39,319 nt of DNA from a virus: IMG/VR virus record IMGVR_UViG_3300028589_000019, positions 1-39,319 of that record; one strand, written 5' to 3'. The translations under genes and the position numbers were made by a program. Shown here piece by piece: positions 1,632 through 39,197 of this stretch. Below the pieces are notes generated by a model. It worked only from the letters and a program-made list of their open reading frames with translations. It was not told the origin of the DNA and did no database searches. Positions within the stretch are counted from its first letter, which is position 1. The number at the start of each line of letters is the position of its first letter.

Positions 1632-2708
1632 TTATTTCGTTGGCTTTACGATTTCCCCCACTCGGCGGTATACCTTTTTTGTCATTTCCTCAGTGGAATG
1701 ACCAAGCAGACGGCTTGCGTGCTTGATGTCCTCGATTTCGCTACCCGCCTTCGGGCGGATGTCTCTGAATTGAAACTTCCGGATCGTGATAGCCAGTTCG
1801 GTGTCACCGTCGGTCGCAGCTTTGATCGCAGCCCGATCTCTGGCTTCGTCCCAGCGATTGCGCAACATGTTGTAGCTCATGCGCAGGCCAGCCTGGTTGG
1901 TGATCAAGACAGAAGTTTTGGTGCCGGCTTGGTTCCGCCGATCAAGTAGGCCATTGATAAACACGCAGAGGTCCGTTTCGTTGTTGCCGTCGTAGAGGCG
2001 AATCCGCAAGCGCTTTTCCGTCTTGCCTTGGCCAACCATCAGAAAGCCATGATTGAGGTCGGTGGTCGATGCCTTCAGCACGTCAGCTGGGCGCTGTCCT
2101 GTCAGATATGCCAGATCCATTGCGTCCTTGAGATCCTGTCCCGCCTGTTCGTATACCGCGTTCCAGATGATATCGCCGGCATAGAAGTCCCTAGGCGTCT
2201 CCTTGTTTCGGCGCAGGCCGAAGCAGGGGTTGGCCTTGTCGGTCAAGCCCCACTCTCGGGCGAAGGTGAACATGGTTGAAAGCAATGCGATCTCCCGGTT
2301 GGCTCGTACCTTAGCGGTGCGGGCGTCCCGATATTGGGCGATCACCTGTGGAGTCATGGCGTCGATAGGGGCTGGTTTGTCACCATCGAACACCTGGCGA
2401 AGTTGTTTCAGCCCCTTGAGATAGTCGCTCTGGGTGCCTGGCTTAAGGGTAGGGATCACCTTCTTTTCGTAATCGTCGAAAAGACGGCCCATCAAGTGCG
2501 CCGGTTTCGGTGTCGCCTTGCGGTCGAGCCGCGCCCATTCGATCTTGGCTTCGTCGAGGTCGCCGCCGAGCGGAATCTCCACTCGGTTACCGTCGGCGTC
2601 CCGGCCGTTGTAATAGTAACCGGTCCAGACTGTGCCGCCTTTTCTGGTGCGGGTGCGCCGGATCATCCGTGGCGGCAGATCCCGATTGGCTGTTTTCTTC
2701 TGTCGCAT
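1632..2708 (-). CDS. int: Phage tyrosine-recombinase integrase
   Basis: A 358-residue site-specific recombinase that inserts the phage into tRNA-Cys. The N-terminal about 65 residues form a small basic arm-binding-type domain (ZYYNG-like WTGYYYNGRDADG), followed by a core-binding segment (about 70-165) and the catalytic domain. Visible catalytic residues are Arg206 in TGQRP, Lys229, Arg318 in FRDIRPK, His337 in LLGHS and nucleophile Tyr347 in KKVYRRVGE. The usual His of the HxxR box is Arg315, a variant I recall from Pseudomonas phage integrases. The ATG at 2708 lies 2 bases after the stop of the DUF4224 gene. A longer upstream frame overlaps that gene and is rejected. It is the last gene of the leftward early operon. 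Confidence 0.93.
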   Translation of the reverse strand: MRQKKTANRDLPPRMIRRTRTRKGGTVWTGYYYNGRDADGNRVEIPLGGDLDEAKIEWARLDRKATPKPAHLMGRLFDDYEKKVIPTLKPGTQSDYLKGLKQLRQVFDGDKPAPIDAMTPQVIAQYRDARTAKVRANREIALLSTMFTFAREWGLTDKANPCFGLRRNKETPRDFYAGDIIWNAVYEQAGQDLKDAMDLAYLTGQRPADVLKASTTDLNHGFLMVGQGKTEKRLRIRLYDGNNETDLCVFINGLLDRRNQAGTKTSVLITNQAGLRMSYNMLRNRWDEARDRAAIKAATDGDTELAITIRKFQFRDIRPKAGSEIEDIKHASRLLGHSTEEMTKKVYRRVGEIVKPTK

Positions 2709-2710
2709 CG

Positions 2711-2986
2711 TCAGCCCACGCGTGCCAGATCGAGGGTCCAAGTGTCGGCTACAGCATTGTTTGCCGTAGGCCTTACCCCTGCCAGCTTCAACCGGGCATA
2801 AACCCGCCCTACAACTGGACGCTGGGCGCCGGTAACAACGAACTCCCAGTGATTGTTTGTCAGCCATTGGCGCTGGCAGGATGGGATTTTGTAGCCGGTT
2901 ATGGTGGCCAGCTCATCGTCAGTCAACGTTTCACTGAGAAATTCCATCGCTTGGTTCCTGGTAGAGTTGATCTGTGCACTCTTCAC
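2711..2986 (-). CDS. DUF4224 protein next to integrase
   Basis: A 91-residue protein with the DUF4224 signature: an LTDDELATITGYKIPSCQRQWL segment in two parts, then a GRVYARL strand. DUF4224 proteins commonly sit beside phage integrases. An excisionase or integrase-accessory role is often supposed but not established. The GTG start at 2986 overlaps the stop of the upstream HD gene as GTGA and has GGAGG 8 bases upstream, so I prefer it. An internal ATG at 2947, just before MEFLSETL, has a weaker AGGA site and could be the true start of a 78-residue form. Confidence 0.8.
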   Translation of the reverse strand: MKSAQINSTRNQAMEFLSETLTDDELATITGYKIPSCQRQWLTNNHWEFVVTGAQRPVVGRVYARLKLAGVRPTANNAVADTWTLDLARVG

Positions 2987-5737: not shown

Positions 5738-6117
5738 GTTGCTTTCTCCCCGTGCCCCTCTGCTGGGGGCAGCAACTTCAAGCGAATCATCTCGGCGAGA
5801 CCTTCTTTGCTTTTGCCCATTGCAGCCGCACGGACATTGCCGTTTTCGTCCGCGACAACGGCGCCGAATGGATACTCCGGCGAGTTAGTCGGGGTGACGT
5901 AGGCGGTCTGGCCTTCGAGGATCACGTTGTTGACGCAGCGATATACGTCGGCCAGCTCAAGCACACGCATCGGCACACTGCTGAGCATTTCAATGGCTTC
6001 GCTTGCGGCGCCGATGAGTGTCGCGCGGCTAACGATGCCAGGGCTGTCGAGGTAGACAGGGATCAGTCGCAGGCTGCTGAGCGCGTGACAATGAGCGTTG
6101 AGATAGTTGCTGTTCAT
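5734..6117 (-). CDS. Hypothetical phage protein
   Basis: A 127-residue soluble protein with no motif I recognise. The C-terminal half (YPFGAVVADENGNVRAAAMGKSKEGLAEMIRL) looks like a small alpha/beta domain. The ATG at 6117 overlaps the stop of the KilA-C gene as ATGA, and its stop overlaps the PrtN start, so it is translated as part of the PL operon. A longer frame upstream lies inside the previous gene and is not used. Confidence 0.75.
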   Translation of the reverse strand: MNSNYLNAHCHALSSLRLIPVYLDSPGIVSRATLIGAASEAIEMLSSVPMRVLELADVYRCVNNVILEGQTAYVTPTNSPEYPFGAVVADENGNVRAAAMGKSKEGLAEMIRLKLLPPAEGHGEKAT

Positions 6118-6398
6118 GCTGCGGCGTCCTTGTTCTGGGCTTTGATGCCGATGCCGAGTTGCTTTGCCAGCCACTCGACTCCCTTTTCGGTGACTATCAC
6201 GACGGCGTAGTGGCTGTAGCCTCTGATGTGGTCGTTCCAGCGGCTGCGGGTGTCCGAAAACAGATAGCCGCGGTCGCGGTGCTGGCTGGCCAGGTCACCG
6301 CTTTGGGTCAGCACTTTGAGTTCGCGCAACCGGGTGCGGAACTTGCGGGGTTTGAGGCCCAGCACTGCGGCCGTTTCGTCCAGGGTGCGGTTCGTCAT
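6114..6398 (-). CDS. KilA-C/ANT-domain protein, possible antirepressor
   Basis: A 94-residue protein that appears to consist of a single KilA-C (ANT, phage antirepressor C-terminal) domain: DETAAVLGLKPRKFRTRLRELKVL, a DRGYLFSD turn, and a VVIVTEKGVEWLAKQLG end. ANT domains occur at the C-terminus of P22-type and P1-type antirepressors and on their own in early phage operons. It could help inactivate the repressor, but a stand-alone domain may equally bind DNA in another role. ATG at 6398 is chosen as the start before the domain. Confidence 0.8.
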   Translation of the reverse strand: MTNRTLDETAAVLGLKPRKFRTRLRELKVLTQSGDLASQHRDRGYLFSDTRSRWNDHIRGYSHYAVVIVTEKGVEWLAKQLGIGIKAQNKDAAA

Positions 6399-6408
6399 GG
6401 CGCTACCC

Positions 6409-6675
6409 TCAGACCTGCGTTGGCGGGTTGGCGACTTCATGAATGAAGTCGCGCAGATGCAGGTGATTTGCTCGGTCATTTCGGCGAAGCCTGATGCTGT
6501 CCTTGCGTCCTCCGACACTGACCTCAACGATTGTCATGGCGGAGGTCAACTGAACTGAGAGTTCTGCACGCATGGTCTGCTCTGGACGAATCAAGTCGCA
6601 GGTTGCCTCGCCACCGACTTGCAGCATGTGATGCAACAGTTCTTGCCGGGCGAGAGGGAGGGAGTAAGCGCTCAT
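6409..6675 (-). CDS. Hypothetical early protein
   Basis: An 88-residue protein, unknown. The N-terminal third is helical (LPLARQELLHHMLQVGGEA) and the middle resembles two beta-strands ending in an RLRRND basic patch. The ATG at 6675 overlaps the upstream stop as ATGA, which supports translation. It is the second gene of the PL operon. Confidence 0.65.
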   Translation of the reverse strand: MSAYSLPLARQELLHHMLQVGGEATCDLIRPEQTMRAELSVQLTSAMTIVEVSVGGRKDSIRLRRNDRANHLHLRDFIHEVANPPTQV

Positions 6676-6906: not shown

Positions 6907-6935
6907 AAATTAGTCTGACTGATATAAGCTGTCAA
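6907..6935 (-). promoter_or_regulatory. PL, leftward early promoter
   Basis: On the minus strand a perfect -35 TTGACA (6930-6935), a 17-base spacer and -10 TAATTT (6907-6912) form a strong sigma-70 promoter. It lies between the repressor terminator and the first leftward early gene. It is overlapped by a LexA-like CTG-N10-CAG at 6929-6944 and by an imperfect dyad TGATA-N5-TGTCA at 6920-6934 that could be a repressor operator. Confidence 0.8.
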
Positions 6936-6944
6936 TATATTCAG
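6929..6944. promoter_or_regulatory. LexA-box-like site over PL -35
   Basis: CTGTCAATATATTCAG keeps the CTG-N10-CAG frame and AT-rich middle of a LexA box. Its second half reads TTCAG instead of TACAG, as the E. coli uvrA box does from memory. It covers the -35 element, so bound LexA would block PL. Confidence 0.5.
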
Positions 6945-7010: not shown

Positions 7011-7904
7011 CTACGGGACGATCACTGAATACCAGAACACCTTGCCCATGATCTGTATGTGTTCCCTAGCATATTGGCCGTCGTAGCGTTCGTCCGGATG
7101 CTCGACATCGTTGTAGCTTTTAAGTCGAATGCCACCGCCGGGTAAGCGATAGAGGATTCTTACGCTGATCAGGCCGTCGTGGTCAACAGCGTACATTTTT
7201 CCATCATCGATATTGTTCGTAGCGGTGTCGACCGCCACGAGGCTGCCTGGTGGCAGAACAGGAACCATGCTGTTTCCTGTGACGACCACGCATGCTGCGT
7301 CTTCTGGATGGATATTTCGTTGCTGGAGTAATCCCTTCCATAAGCGATGCTTTCGTCCGTATTCATCAAGCATGACCACATTTCCTTGTCCTTCGGAAAA
7401 CTCAACCTCCCGAAAGAAAGGAAGCGCTACTTCGTCCTCTCCTAAGGGGGTTTGGTCATCCCACAGGTCTACCGGAGTAACTCTGAATGCTTCATTTTCT
7501 TCAAAGCGCAGAGGTATCAAGTTTGAATGTGAGGTGACGCTTTCCGCATTGATTGGGGTTATGTGATCAACGTTGATTTGCGGATGAGCGGCTACTAGAC
7601 GAGGGCTAACTTCACTCGGATCGAAATTTAGGATAGAGGCGAACTTCACCAGCGCTGAGAAGTTGAGTGCGATCTTGCCGTTCAGGTACTGGCTTACGAC
7701 GCTCTGTCCAGCCCAGCCGCACATATCGGCGATCTTTTCCTGGTTGAGGTCTGGGTCTACTTTTTTCTTGGCAAGATATTTGAGTTTTAAAAGGCGTGCT
7801 TCTTCGTCCCTGATCGGATCTGCGATTTGTGTTCGCGGAGCGCGTTTTCGGGTGAGGGTTGGAACCTCGAGGCGCTTAGGGTGTGTCGGTTTATGAGTAT
7901 CCAT
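7011..7904 (-). CDS. CI/PrtR-like repressor (XRE HTH + S24 fold)
   Basis: A 297-residue lysogeny repressor. Residues about 54-92 form the XRE helix-turn-helix (LNQEKIADMCGWAGQSVVSQYLNGK), and about 165-297 a LexA/S24-type domain. Ser212 in TGNSMVPVLPPG is the nucleophile. Exactly 37 residues on, where E. coli LexA has its Lys (Ser119/Lys156), this protein has Arg249 (ISVRILYRLPGG). The linker has no Ala-Gly; the nearest equivalent reads SEG at 170-172. I infer poor or absent self-cleavage. ATG at 7904 is chosen because the HTH fits and the divergent promoter lies directly upstream. It is divergent to Cro and ends at the terminator 6966-6993. Confidence 0.88.
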   Translation of the reverse strand: MDTHKPTHPKRLEVPTLTRKRAPRTQIADPIRDEEARLLKLKYLAKKKVDPDLNQEKIADMCGWAGQSVVSQYLNGKIALNFSALVKFASILNFDPSEVSPRLVAAHPQINVDHITPINAESVTSHSNLIPLRFEENEAFRVTPVDLWDDQTPLGEDEVALPFFREVEFSEGQGNVVMLDEYGRKHRLWKGLLQQRNIHPEDAACVVVTGNSMVPVLPPGSLVAVDTATNNIDDGKMYAVDHDGLISVRILYRLPGGGIRLKSYNDVEHPDERYDGQYAREHIQIMGKVFWYSVIVP

Positions 7905-8020: not shown

Positions 8021-8230
8021 ATGGAAAACAACATTGGTGTGCCCCTGCGTGACTTCGCGACGGGGAAAACTCAGCCTGAACTGGCGCTGCTGCTCTCTGT
8101 GTCACAGAGCGCTGTGTCGCAAATGCTCAGCTCCACAAGAGATATCTGGGTAAAAACGAACCCAGATGGCAGCCACTCGGCCATTGAGTTACGGCCAGTC
8201 GGTTCTCGGCGTAAGCCAAAAGCAGCGTGA
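8021..8230 (+). CDS. cro: Cro-like regulator
   Basis: A 69-residue basic DNA-binding protein with one helix-turn-helix (TQPELALLLSVSQSAVSQMLSS, residues about 17-38) and a basic tail. Position, size and divergence from the CI-like gene are those of a Cro. It has a strong ribosome site (AAGGAAGG directly before ATG) and lies just behind PR. It would repress the repressor promoter or the early promoters once lytic growth starts, as in lambdoid switches. Confidence 0.82.
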   Translation: MENNIGVPLRDFATGKTQPELALLLSVSQSAVSQMLSSTRDIWVKTNPDGSHSAIELRPVGSRRKPKAA

Positions 8231-36371: not shown

Positions 36372-36920
36372 ATGCCTATCACTCAGCAGCAGTTGCTGCA
36401 GATCCTCCCGAACGCCGGCGCCAAAGCCGGCGTTTTTGTTCCTGTCCTAAATACTGCCATGCAGCGCTACCAGATTGTCGGTACCAAGCGTGTCGCCGCA
36501 TTCATCGCTCAGATCGGCCACGAGTCCGGCCAGTTGCGCTGGGTGCGTGAGATTTGGGGGCCAACGGATGCACAGCGCGGGTACGAAGGCCGCAAAGATC
36601 TGGGCAACACCATGGCGGGTGATGGCACGAAGTTCTGCGGCCGTGGCCTGATCCAGATCACCGGCAGGACGAATTATGCGGCGTGCGGCGAGGCGCTGGG
36701 CTTGGACCTGATCAATCATCCAGAGCTGCTGGAGCTGCCGCAAAACGCCACGATGTCGGCAGCCTGGTGGTGGGCCACGCATGGGCTGAACACGCTGGCC
36801 GATGCTGGCGACAACGCGAACATCGGTAGCATCATCAACACCGGACGGCGCGGGCGCACTCCGAATGGCGCCGCTGAGCGCCAGACCTTCTACGAGAAGG
36901 CATTGCAGGTGCTGGCGTGA
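36372..36920 (+). CDS. Endolysin, glycoside hydrolase family 19
   Basis: A 182-residue muramidase/chitinase-like lysin that cuts peptidoglycan at lysis. Catalytic Glu51 and Glu60 lie in AQIGHESGQLRWVREI; FCGRGLIQITGRTNYAACG and the AWWWATHGLN helix are typical of GH19 phage lysins. It has no signal peptide, so release depends on the holins 22 kb upstream in the prophage map. GGAG precedes ATG 36372. Codons 14-22 encode a terminator-like hairpin (36411-36437). Confidence 0.92.
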   Translation: MPITQQQLLQILPNAGAKAGVFVPVLNTAMQRYQIVGTKRVAAFIAQIGHESGQLRWVREIWGPTDAQRGYEGRKDLGNTMAGDGTKFCGRGLIQITGRTNYAACGEALGLDLINHPELLELPQNATMSAAWWWATHGLNTLADAGDNANIGSIINTGRRGRTPNGAAERQTFYEKALQVLA

Positions 36921-37456
36921 TTGCCGTTCCGTGGAAAGCAGTGGGCGCGATAGTGCTGGTGCTGATCGGCGCCGGCAGCGCCTGGCAGTTTCAGGACTGG
37001 CGCTACGGCCGCCAACTGGCCGAGCAAGCGCGGCTGCACGCAGAAACCCTCAACCAACTCACACGGGGGGCCGCCACCGCGCAGCAAGCCGAGCAGGACA
37101 AGCGCCTGGCGCTCGAGCAGCGGCTTGCGGCCAGCGAGAAAACCCACTTCAGGAAAATGACCGATGCCCAACGTGACCAAGATCTCCTGCGCGATCGCCT
37201 TGCCACTGCTGATGTCCGGCTGTCAGTCCTCATCGACGCAGCCGACGCAGCCGACGCAGCCGACGCTGCCAAAGGCTGTGGTGTGCCAGCCACCGCCGGC
37301 ACCGGCGGCGTGGATCATGCAGCCGTACGAGCCCGACTTGACCCAGCGCATGCTCAACGAATTGTCGCCATCACCGATAGCGGCGACCGGGGGCTGATCG
37401 CGCTGCAGGCTTGTCAGGCTTATGTCAGAGCACTGGCGCCCCCACACTATGAGTGA
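36917..37456 (+). CDS. Rz: i-spanin, Rz-like
   Basis: A 179-residue inner-membrane spanin. It has one N-terminal membrane helix (about residues 7-23, AVGAIVLVLIGAGSAW) and a long periplasmic coiled coil (about 30-110), followed by an ADAADAADAA repeat and a C-terminus with three Cys in total. The GTG start overlaps the endolysin stop as GTGA. The partner o-spanin is encoded inside it in another frame. Confidence 0.88.
   Translation: MIAVPWKAVGAIVLVLIGAGSAWQFQDWRYGRQLAEQARLHAETLNQLTRGAATAQQAEQDKRLALEQRLAASEKTHFRKMTDAQRDQDLLRDRLATADVRLSVLIDAADAADAADAAKGCGVPATAGTGGVDHAAVRARLDPAHAQRIVAITDSGDRGLIALQACQAYVRALAPPHYE
37164..37397 (+). CDS. Rz1: o-spanin lipoprotein, Rz1-like, nested in Rz
   Basis: A 77-residue outer-membrane lipoprotein in the +1 frame wholly inside the Rz gene. 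The signal ends in the lipobox LMSGC with Cys20 as lipid site. The mature part is Pro-rich (TQPTQPTQPTLP, CQPPPAPAAW), as usual for Rz1. It would bridge to Rz and fuse the two membranes in the last step of lysis. GTGACCAAG-type Pro/Lys codon use differs from Rz because the frame is shared. Confidence 0.85.
   Translation: MPNVTKISCAIALPLLMSGCQSSSTQPTQPTQPTLPKAVVCQPPPAPAAWIMQPYEPDLTQRMLNELSPSPIAATGG
37235..37270 (+). repeat. Four 9-bp tandem repeats read in two frames
   Basis: GACGCAGCC at 37235, 37244 and 37253, then GACGCTGCC at 37262. In Rz it encodes Asp-Ala-Ala units and in Rz1 Gln-Pro-Thr units. Confidence 0.9.
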
Positions 37457-37458
37457 GG

Positions 37459-37827
37459 TCACCGGTTCGGTTGGCCGGTCCGCGCGCTGATCCCGGTAGC
37501 TGCGTCAAGCTTTGTGCTTAGTTCGCTGATGTGCTTGTCCTTGGCCATCAACTGCCAGTTGCTTTTGGTTTCGATATCGGTGGCTTTCCGGTTTGCGTCG
37601 GCAGCCTCTGACTTTGCTGCGGTCAGTTGCGTGCGGAGTTGATCGCGTTCAATTGCGACGGCGGCGTGCATCTCGACCAGCTTGAATATCCGTTCCCTGG
37701 CTTGTCGCAGTTGCAGGTTTAGTTCCTCAAATTCGTTTTCGTAAAGGGCGAGCTGGTGCCGGCATGTTTCGAGCGGTGTCGGGCAGCCCAGCCAGTTGTC
37801 AGTGTCTTCGATTTCAATGGGTTTCAC
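37459..37827 (-). CDS. Coiled-coil protein under a LexA box
   Basis: A 122-residue soluble, highly charged protein. Residues about 25-110 form a continuous helix rich in heptads (YENEFEELNLQLRQARERIF, then ERDQLRTQLTAAKSEAADAN). I recognise no family. It is the only leftward gene at this end and stops 3 bases from the Rz stop. The GTG start at 37827 has AAGG 8 bases upstream. A near-consensus LexA box (37846-37861) covers its likely -10. Gene size and SOS control fit an antirepressor or other induction factor, but this is inference. Confidence 0.75.
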   Translation of the reverse strand: MKPIEIEDTDNWLGCPTPLETCRHQLALYENEFEELNLQLRQARERIFKLVEMHAAVAIERDQLRTQLTAAKSEAADANRKATDIETKSNWQLMAKDKHISELSTKLDAATGISARTGQPNR

Positions 37828-37845
37828 GGAGCTGCCTTGTTGATA

Positions 37846-37861
37846 CTGTTTGTATATACAG
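37846..37861. promoter_or_regulatory. LexA (SOS) box
   Basis: CTGTTTGTATATACAG has both perfect half-sites CTGT and ACAG with 8 bases between them and further TA/TA flanks. It overlaps the -10 TATATA (37853-37858) of a minus-strand promoter with -35 ATGACG (37877-37882, 18-base spacer), 19 bases upstream of the GTG at 37827. Confidence 0.85.
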
Positions 37862-37912
37862 TAATCGAGGGCTGCACGTCATGCGAGGCTGAGGCGACGA
37901 GCTGCGGCTACC

Positions 37913-38035: not shown

Positions 38036-38087
38036 TGGATTGCAAATCCACCTACGCCGGTTCGATTCCGACCTCGGCCTCCACTAT
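38036..38087. other. attR core
   Basis: Exact copy of attL 10-61. The tRNA-Cys 3' half here is cut off from its 5' half and is not a functional gene. The host terminator follows at 38092-38127. Confidence 0.95.
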
Positions 38088-38279: not shown

Positions 38280-38366
38280 GCCCGAATGGCGAAACTGGTA
38301 GACGCATGGGACTTAAAATCCCCCGCTCGTAAGGGCGTGCCGGTTCGATTCCGGCTTCGGGCACCA
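38280..38366 (+). tRNA. tRNA-Leu(UAA)
   Basis: An 87-base class II tRNA. GCCCGAA at the 5' end pairs with TTCGGGC, the anticodon loop CTTAAAA gives UAA, a long variable arm CCGCTCGTAAGGGCGTG follows, the T-arm GGTTCGATTCC is intact and CCA is encoded. It is the host gene next to tRNA-Cys. Confidence 0.96.
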
Positions 38367-38375
38367 TGAATATCA

Positions 38376-38413
38376 AAGGCCTGCATGAGAATTCTCATGC
38401 AGGCCTTTTTTTT
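38376..38413 (+). terminator. Terminator after tRNA-Leu
   Basis: A perfect 14-bp inverted repeat, GGCCTGCATGAGAA with TTCTCATGCAGGCC, followed by eight T. Confidence 0.95.
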
Positions 38414-38432
38414 GTGCCTTTATTATGCGGCG

Positions 38433-38717
38433 CTAAACGAACGCCTGGCCGCCAAAGCCACGAGGCAAGCGCTGAAGACCAGCCATTGCTGTCAGCCGTT
38501 CGATCCATTCTGCGCGCCAGTCTGTTGCCCTGTGTGTGGTTTTGCCCTGGCGGGACATTCTTCGGGCCGCGTTGCGCTGATCCTTTCGTGCCTGTTTGTA
38601 GGCATCGGTATTGCGGCAACTGCGGCACTTCACACGATTGAGCTCGCGGCTTGCCGAAAGTTGCTCGCCTTTGTGCCCACAGGCCAGATGCCCGTCGACG
38701 TTGAAATGGATAACCAT
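38433..38717 (-). CDS. Host small Cys-rich basic protein
   Basis: A 94-residue host protein, unknown. CGHKG and CRSC give three cysteines and histidines in an order that could bind zinc, followed by a very basic helix (YKQARKDQRNAARRMSRQGK). ATG 38717 has AAGGAG 6 bases upstream. A longer frame from 38840 reads through the terminator at 38790 and is rejected. Confidence 0.7.
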   Translation of the reverse strand: MVIHFNVDGHLACGHKGEQLSASRELNRVKCRSCRNTDAYKQARKDQRNAARRMSRQGKTTHRATDWRAEWIERLTAMAGLQRLPRGFGGQAFV

Positions 38718-38789
38718 AACTGTCTCCTTTGCGACATGTATGAGTTTTGACAACTCACCCACAGCGCCGTTCGCTGCTTGGGTGCAGAC

Positions 38790-38816
38790 AAAAAAACACC
38801 CGCATGCGGGCGGGTG
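38790..38816 (-). terminator. Terminator of the 76-residue host gene
   Basis: CACCCGC/GCGGGTG with a 6-base loop, followed on the minus strand by six to seven T. It separates the two host genes. In the same spacer an 8-bp inverted repeat GCGGTGAC/GTCACCGC lies at 38908-38929 without a T-run. Confidence 0.8.
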
Positions 38817-38966
38817 ATCGCTGTCGTGCAAAGGAGTCATTGGTGCAGAGTGGTCGTTAGGTAAAACCCGTAATTGCTGGAAAAACCAATATAGCGACCA
38901 TGCGCGCGCGGTGACGGATGTGTCACCGCTGTGAAGAAAACTCCCGAGACCGTGGCGAGGTCGGCG

Positions 38967-39197
38967 TCATCTGAACCGAGGTAGTGGCCGATCAAGGGGC
39001 TTGAGCGCCGACAGCGTATTGCGAATCAGCGGAGCATCCTTCTCGATGTCGTTCAGCCGGTCACGGATGCGTAGGGCGGTCGGGTGTCCGCCTTGGTGAT
39101 CGACCCAGTCGGCGATCTCTTTGCAGGCAGCCGCGAGGCGCGCTTGCCGAGCGTCGAGCAGGGTGAGGAGGGTGGTGATGGACTCTTTTTCGGACAT
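38967..39197 (-). CDS. Host small helical protein
   Basis: A 76-residue soluble, helical host protein of unknown function (ITTLLTLLDARQARLAAACKEIADWVDHQ). ATG 39197 has GGAGGTG upstream. It is the last gene in the window. A minus-strand hairpin followed by T residues at about 39233-39258 probably ends the next gene outside the window. Confidence 0.72.
   Translation of the reverse strand: MSEKESITTLLTLLDARQARLAAACKEIADWVDHQGGHPTALRIRDRLNDIEKDAPLIRNTLSALKPLDRPLPRFR

Follow-up and report, generated by a model that had tools for sequence, protein, structure and literature searches.

What would a small gene under putative LexA control do at the far end of a prophage whose own repressor looks non-cleavable? 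This question is raised by a leftward gene for a coiled-coil protein at positions 37459–37827 (- strand) of a viral DNA stretch of 39,319 nucleotides (IMG/VR record IMGVR_UViG_3300028589_000019, hereafter the window). The original prediction, made from the sequence alone, took this gene for an antirepressor of the phage. LexA-controlled prophage genes decide how lysogens behave on DNA damage. No earlier description of the gene was found in the literature searched.

The coiled-coil gene and its place in the prophage

The leftward ORF runs from a GTG codon at 37827 to a stop at 37459 and encodes 122 aa. Comparison with nine relatives gave dN/dS values of 0.08–0.27, which rule out an antisense or non-coding role for this interval; this is a coding ORF, conserved and under purifying selection. 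The protein matched no Pfam model at cut-off in the profile search and nothing better than E 0.07 in the PHROG search (threshold E < 0.05), and neither the antirepressor families of Pfam and PHROG nor DinI were among the matches. AlphaFold2, run with 23 relatives, predicted a single continuous helix over residues 18–111 (mean pLDDT 87), preceded by a short non-helical N-terminus that carries the motif W-L-G-C-P-T-P-L-E, and no membrane segment is apparent in the sequence, so that the earlier description as a small coiled coil of no known family holds. Over 25 diverse members, W12, P16, L19, E20, E32, L40, R44, L50, V51, and L68 are invariant, and the N-terminal motif is kept even at 26–35% overall identity. 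In the family alignment, at least three unrelated-looking C-terminal halves are attached to one common N-terminal half, and truncated copies also exist. The helical part resembles YabA (PF06156) in a weak match below the Pfam cut-off (18.9 bits against 30, E 0.0024), which probably reflects coiled-coil composition only, and identity with YabA was dropped; a clamp-binding motif was likewise dropped, as the QLxLY-like stretch is not conserved in the family.

A 52-bp perfect direct repeat marks the attL core (10–61) and the identical attR core (38036–38087), the latter forming the 3′ part of a tRNA. The prophage therefore spans about 10–38087, with the start of the gene 209 bp inside attR, in agreement with its predicted position near this site. 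Pfam and PHROG searches identified a tyrosine integrase at 1632–2867 (- strand) and, together with locus comparison, an Rz-like spanin at 36917–37456 (+ strand) as the convergent neighbour of the coiled-coil gene. The two genes stand tail to tail in most loci, and the neighbours of the coiled-coil gene vary widely among loci. Past attR, the window (38280–39197) holds a complete tRNA-Leu as well as two leftward ORFs that match phrog_24988 and phrog_12397. As judged by eye, up to 29 other loci have a relative of the phrog_12397 ORF upstream of their coiled-coil gene, so that a second element may abut the prophage.

Contigs with relatives of the gene numbered 15 among Pseudomonas genomes and 65 in IMG/VR, where its absence from a record can be false because IMG/VR records often end near att sites. 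Five phage records contain relatives, of which four name a host, in every case Pseudomonas, and the host of the window is taken from these relatives only. Among 299 sampled genomes of one Pseudomonas genus, 93 matched at E ≤ 0.001, the weak matches possibly including unrelated coiled coils, and about 59 of the 93 fell below 1e-20 by our own count of the table. Some genomes carry two or three copies (G321:C1 2419199–2428331, G270:C1 2327375–2367492, and G115:C1), those in G321 being just 9 kb apart.

The LexA box and the att-proximal slot

The near-consensus LexA box of the original prediction was recovered, CTGTTTGTATATACAG sitting exactly at 37846–37861. Toward the leftward gene (- strand) it reads CTGTATATACAAACAG, which agrees with the consensus CTGTATATATATACAG at 14 of 16 positions and with the CTGT/ACAG core at all eight. 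The loose pattern CTGT-N8-ACAG, with one mismatch allowed, matched 11 times in the window against 12 expected and is therefore uninformative alone, whereas the specific pattern CTGTATAT-N4-ACAG occurs once against 0.00 expected. Conservation of the box extends through the family: a LexA-like box is present in 79 of the 81 relatives whose upstream sequence is long enough (64 with the full CTGT/ACAG core, 15 with seven of its eight positions), compared with 5 of 7,200 shuffled upstreams, and a second, partly overlapping locus set gave 33 of 34. The box mostly begins 34–37 nt before the start codon, within a full range of 34–48 nt in which distances up to 48 nt are counted to the match start in cases whose alignment opens within the ORF. 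The genes for LexA and for YebG-like, TopB-like, and radical-SAM-like proteins in a related Pseudomonas genome (G051) are preceded by the motif as well, all names being assigned from sequence. CTGTTTGTATATACAG is thus a well-supported putative LexA site, and the gene appears to fit the host LexA regulon.

The placement of the box over a -10 element did not find support: the promoter scan gave no sigma-70-type promoter reaching threshold at the LexA box, although the distance from box to start codon is conserved. A second conserved promoter element, CTCGTCGCCTCAGCCTCGC, lies at 37883–37901 (- strand), about 75 nt before the start codon. Strict matches to its pattern, [CT]TCGTCGnCT..CCTCGC, occur in 36 of 84 loci, mostly 74–88 nt before the start codon, and only three strict copies were found elsewhere in 647 kb; it is possibly the site of a second regulator.

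The company of the gene also points toward the SOS response. In 14 of 84 coiled-coil loci an SRAP gene follows 21–136 nt downstream on the same strand, an identity backed by Pfam on L082. Among the spanin-sharing phages without the coiled-coil gene whose slot was inspected, two have SOS-type genes behind a LexA-like box there: L373/G400, the repressor of G400 being itself Glu-Gly, has a LexA-like box with divergent UmuDC and SRAP, and L381/G387 has a LexA-like box, a 242-aa protein without Pfam match, and then SRAP. SRAP has been described beside SOS mutagenesis genes and in prophages (PMC3765255). Together these loci suggest an att-proximal site for SOS-controlled accessory genes. The window has no SRAP or UmuDC at the slot of its coiled-coil gene, so guilt by association rests on the other phages. 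As a separate observation, several related phages (L375 3730, L377 4001, L381 3684, and L384 4257, in coordinates with the spanin on the - strand) have in the same att-proximal region an adenine-methylase-like gene immediately preceded by the LexA-like sequence CTGTATGGATAAACAG.

Inheritance with the lysis end, not with the repressor

The repressor at 7011–7904 (- strand), of CI type with an S24 domain, is encoded divergently from a Cro-like protein at 8021–8230 (+ strand). Alignment with relatives bears out the reported alteration: Glu-Gly replaces Ala-Gly at the cleavage site and Arg replaces the catalytic Lys, with Ser kept, and the repressor of this phage accordingly looks non-cleavable. 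Its closest relative found (L117, 63% identical) retains both Ala-Gly and Lys, and its record yielded no coiled-coil gene. Nearly all of 146 distinct repressor domains have Ala-Gly; by automatic flags checked by eye the Ala position is altered in only a handful, among which loss of Lys was not seen again. CI-type repressors with Asp-Gly, Glu-Gly, Val-Gly, or Gly-Gly (L319, L320, L322, L323, L202, L274, L282, and L284) are further candidates for non-cleavable repressors.

Other features of the early region deserve mention. A small KilAC (ANT) domain protein at 6114–6527 (- strand), in the leftward early operon with xis, is a relative of the C-terminal part of Ant antirepressors from phages and is another antirepression candidate of the window phage. 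ARAGORN called a tRNA-Ala inside its gene (6275–6372), probably a false positive. Upstream of the same operon, CTGTCAATATATTCAG (6929–6944) is one mismatch from the LexA core and could equally belong to a repressor operator.

In its inheritance the coiled-coil gene, located outside the immunity region at a distance of 30 kb from the repressor gene, follows the lysis end of the phage and is independent of the repressor. Across the 31 phages with both genes, the similarity of the coiled-coil protein showed no relation to that of the repressor (Mantel r 0.00, P 0.49), and no matching of the two was found, whereas in the 23 phages with a recognised spanin it followed the adjacent spanin (r 0.64, P 0.0005); the test used bit-score ratios without phylogeny, and the HTH proteins scored as repressors in G007, G023, G029, G036, and G039 may not be the CI of the phage concerned. 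Individual cases are in line with these values, G003, G007, and G008 having coiled-coil ratios of 0.95–0.98 with repressor ratios of 0.04–0.05, and G024 and G044 a repressor ratio of 0.99 with coiled coils whose C-terminal halves share nothing. Any conserved partner is therefore probably not the repressor. Furthermore, at least 12 of the 31 accompanying repressors have Ala-Gly, Ser, and Lys and look cleavable, and the remainder include some without Ala-Gly and some without an S24 domain.

An association of altered repressors with the gene was suggestive before conditioning, but not significant with the lysis module held constant and the seed phages excluded. Among spanin-sharing phages, the gene accompanies 5 of 6 repressors with altered non-Gly sites and 6 of 21 intact ones (P 0.027) with the seed phages included. 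Without the two seeds the comparison is 3 of 4 against 6 of 21 (P 0.12, not significant), counting Gly-Gly repressors as altered gives P 0.16–0.40, and most of the altered cases belong to one repressor clade.

Possible roles and known systems

The reading that we favor, at a probability of roughly 45%, is that of an accessory ("moron") gene under LexA repression in Pseudomonas prophages, carried in the interval between lysis genes and attR and encoding an effector with a host target. On DNA damage, inactivation of LexA by RecA would lead to expression from the still-integrated prophage; the protein would form a coiled-coil dimer, its N-terminal W-L-G-x-P-T-P-L-E motif may dock on an SOS or replication protein shared by all the hosts, and the output could be tuned through the alternative C-terminal halves. 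Its task, beside SRAP or UmuDC, would be to tune the damaged host toward survival of the lysogen or a productive burst, rather than removal of the repressor of its own phage. LexA control and coding status are supported at the level of sequence, and the later steps of this mechanism are inference. Against a host effector it could be held that physical linkage alone accounts for the tie to the spanin, and that repressors which look non-cleavable carry the gene more often than expected, though not significantly.

Among the alternatives, the antirepressor of the original prediction comes closest, and we nevertheless consider it unlikely. In the manner of 186 Tum or Gifsy GfoA/GftA, a damage-induced protein would bind the apparently non-cleavable repressor and free its operators, and may act on several repressors. 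The LexA box, the site outside the immunity region, and the loss of Ala-Gly and Lys in the window, both retained by the L117 repressor whose record yielded no coiled coil, are all in keeping with such a role, as is the co-occurrence with altered non-Gly sites when the seeds are counted. Of these, the LexA box, the site, and the non-cleavable look of this repressor are supported, as is the coiled-coil nature of the protein. What speaks against it is the lack of co-variation, with nearly identical coiled coils beside unrelated repressors, the many partners that look fully cleavable, the fading of the association without the seeds or with Gly-Gly included and its origin mostly in one clade, and the lack of any match to PHROG antirepressor families or DinI. 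Since the gene does not travel with the repressor, it is probably not a dedicated antirepressor, and a shared host target is more likely. Antirepressors of the Salmonella phages Gifsy and Fels-1 can hit non-cognate repressors, and Fels-1, whose own repressor is cleavable, carries one active on the repressor of another phage (PMC3121763); with such examples the missing co-variation carries less weight, and a cross-acting antirepressor would be a minor possibility here.

The tie to the spanin, in adjacency and in co-inheritance, and the LexA timing would also suit an SOS-timed modulator of lysis or cell division that delays or prepares lysis in damaged cells, but proximity on the DNA accounts for the tie just as well, the structure predicted is a single charged helix without an apparent membrane segment, and in 14 loci an SRAP gene separates the coiled-coil gene from the lysis genes, so that we regard this role as improbable. 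Still less credit is given to a selfish cassette with a LexA promoter, recombining at the att-proximal end and encoding a protein of minor or dispensable function. The exchange of C-terminal halves, the truncated copies, and the large variation of neighbours would be expected of such a cassette, yet the strong purifying selection and the retention of the N-terminal motif in distant members argue otherwise.

If the host-effector reading is extended beyond the window, the gene would represent a Pseudomonas-wide, as yet unnamed class of LexA-licensed coiled-coil effectors, in which a fixed N-terminal dock engages one conserved host SOS or replication protein and exchangeable C-terminal halves set the effect, so that very different prophages, with any repressor, could steer the damaged host during induction. 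This generalization is offered more tentatively than the accessory-gene reading itself. Roughly one fifth to one third of the species sampled from one Pseudomonas genus carry the gene, which belongs to no Pfam or PHROG family.

Known systems resemble the coiled-coil gene in different respects. The SRAP/UmuDC cassettes of the SOS response (PMC3765255) share with it the LexA-boxed genes in the same att-proximal slot, but the coiled-coil protein is neither SRAP, UmuD, nor UmuC. The nearest functional precedent in Pseudomonas is PP_3901 of Pseudomonas putida KT2440, likewise reported as a small prophage gene under LexA control and as a requirement for the induction of prophage genes by DNA damage (PMC4595014, citing Abella 2007). 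Homology was dropped as an explanation: the PP_3901 locus, traced in L116 by a published primer sequence, encodes a different protein of 86 aa and has a LexA box of its own, and the L116 prophage record yielded no relative of the coiled-coil protein. PP_3901 also reportedly lies close to the repressor gene PP_3896 (PMC12894663), whereas the coiled-coil gene lies near attR. With 186 Tum, N15 AntC, and Salmonella GfoA/GftA (PMC3121763), the common ground is a small phage protein with a LexA box directly upstream, encoded outside the immunity region, in a phage whose repressor here looks non-cleavable; the coiled-coil protein differs in that no relation in sequence or to DinI was found, and in that its gene is uncoupled from the repressor and often stands beside cleavable ones. 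A LexA box and a small gene near attR are therefore insufficient to call an antirepressor, and the uncoupling from the repressor suggests a target shared among hosts more than a classical cognate antirepressor.
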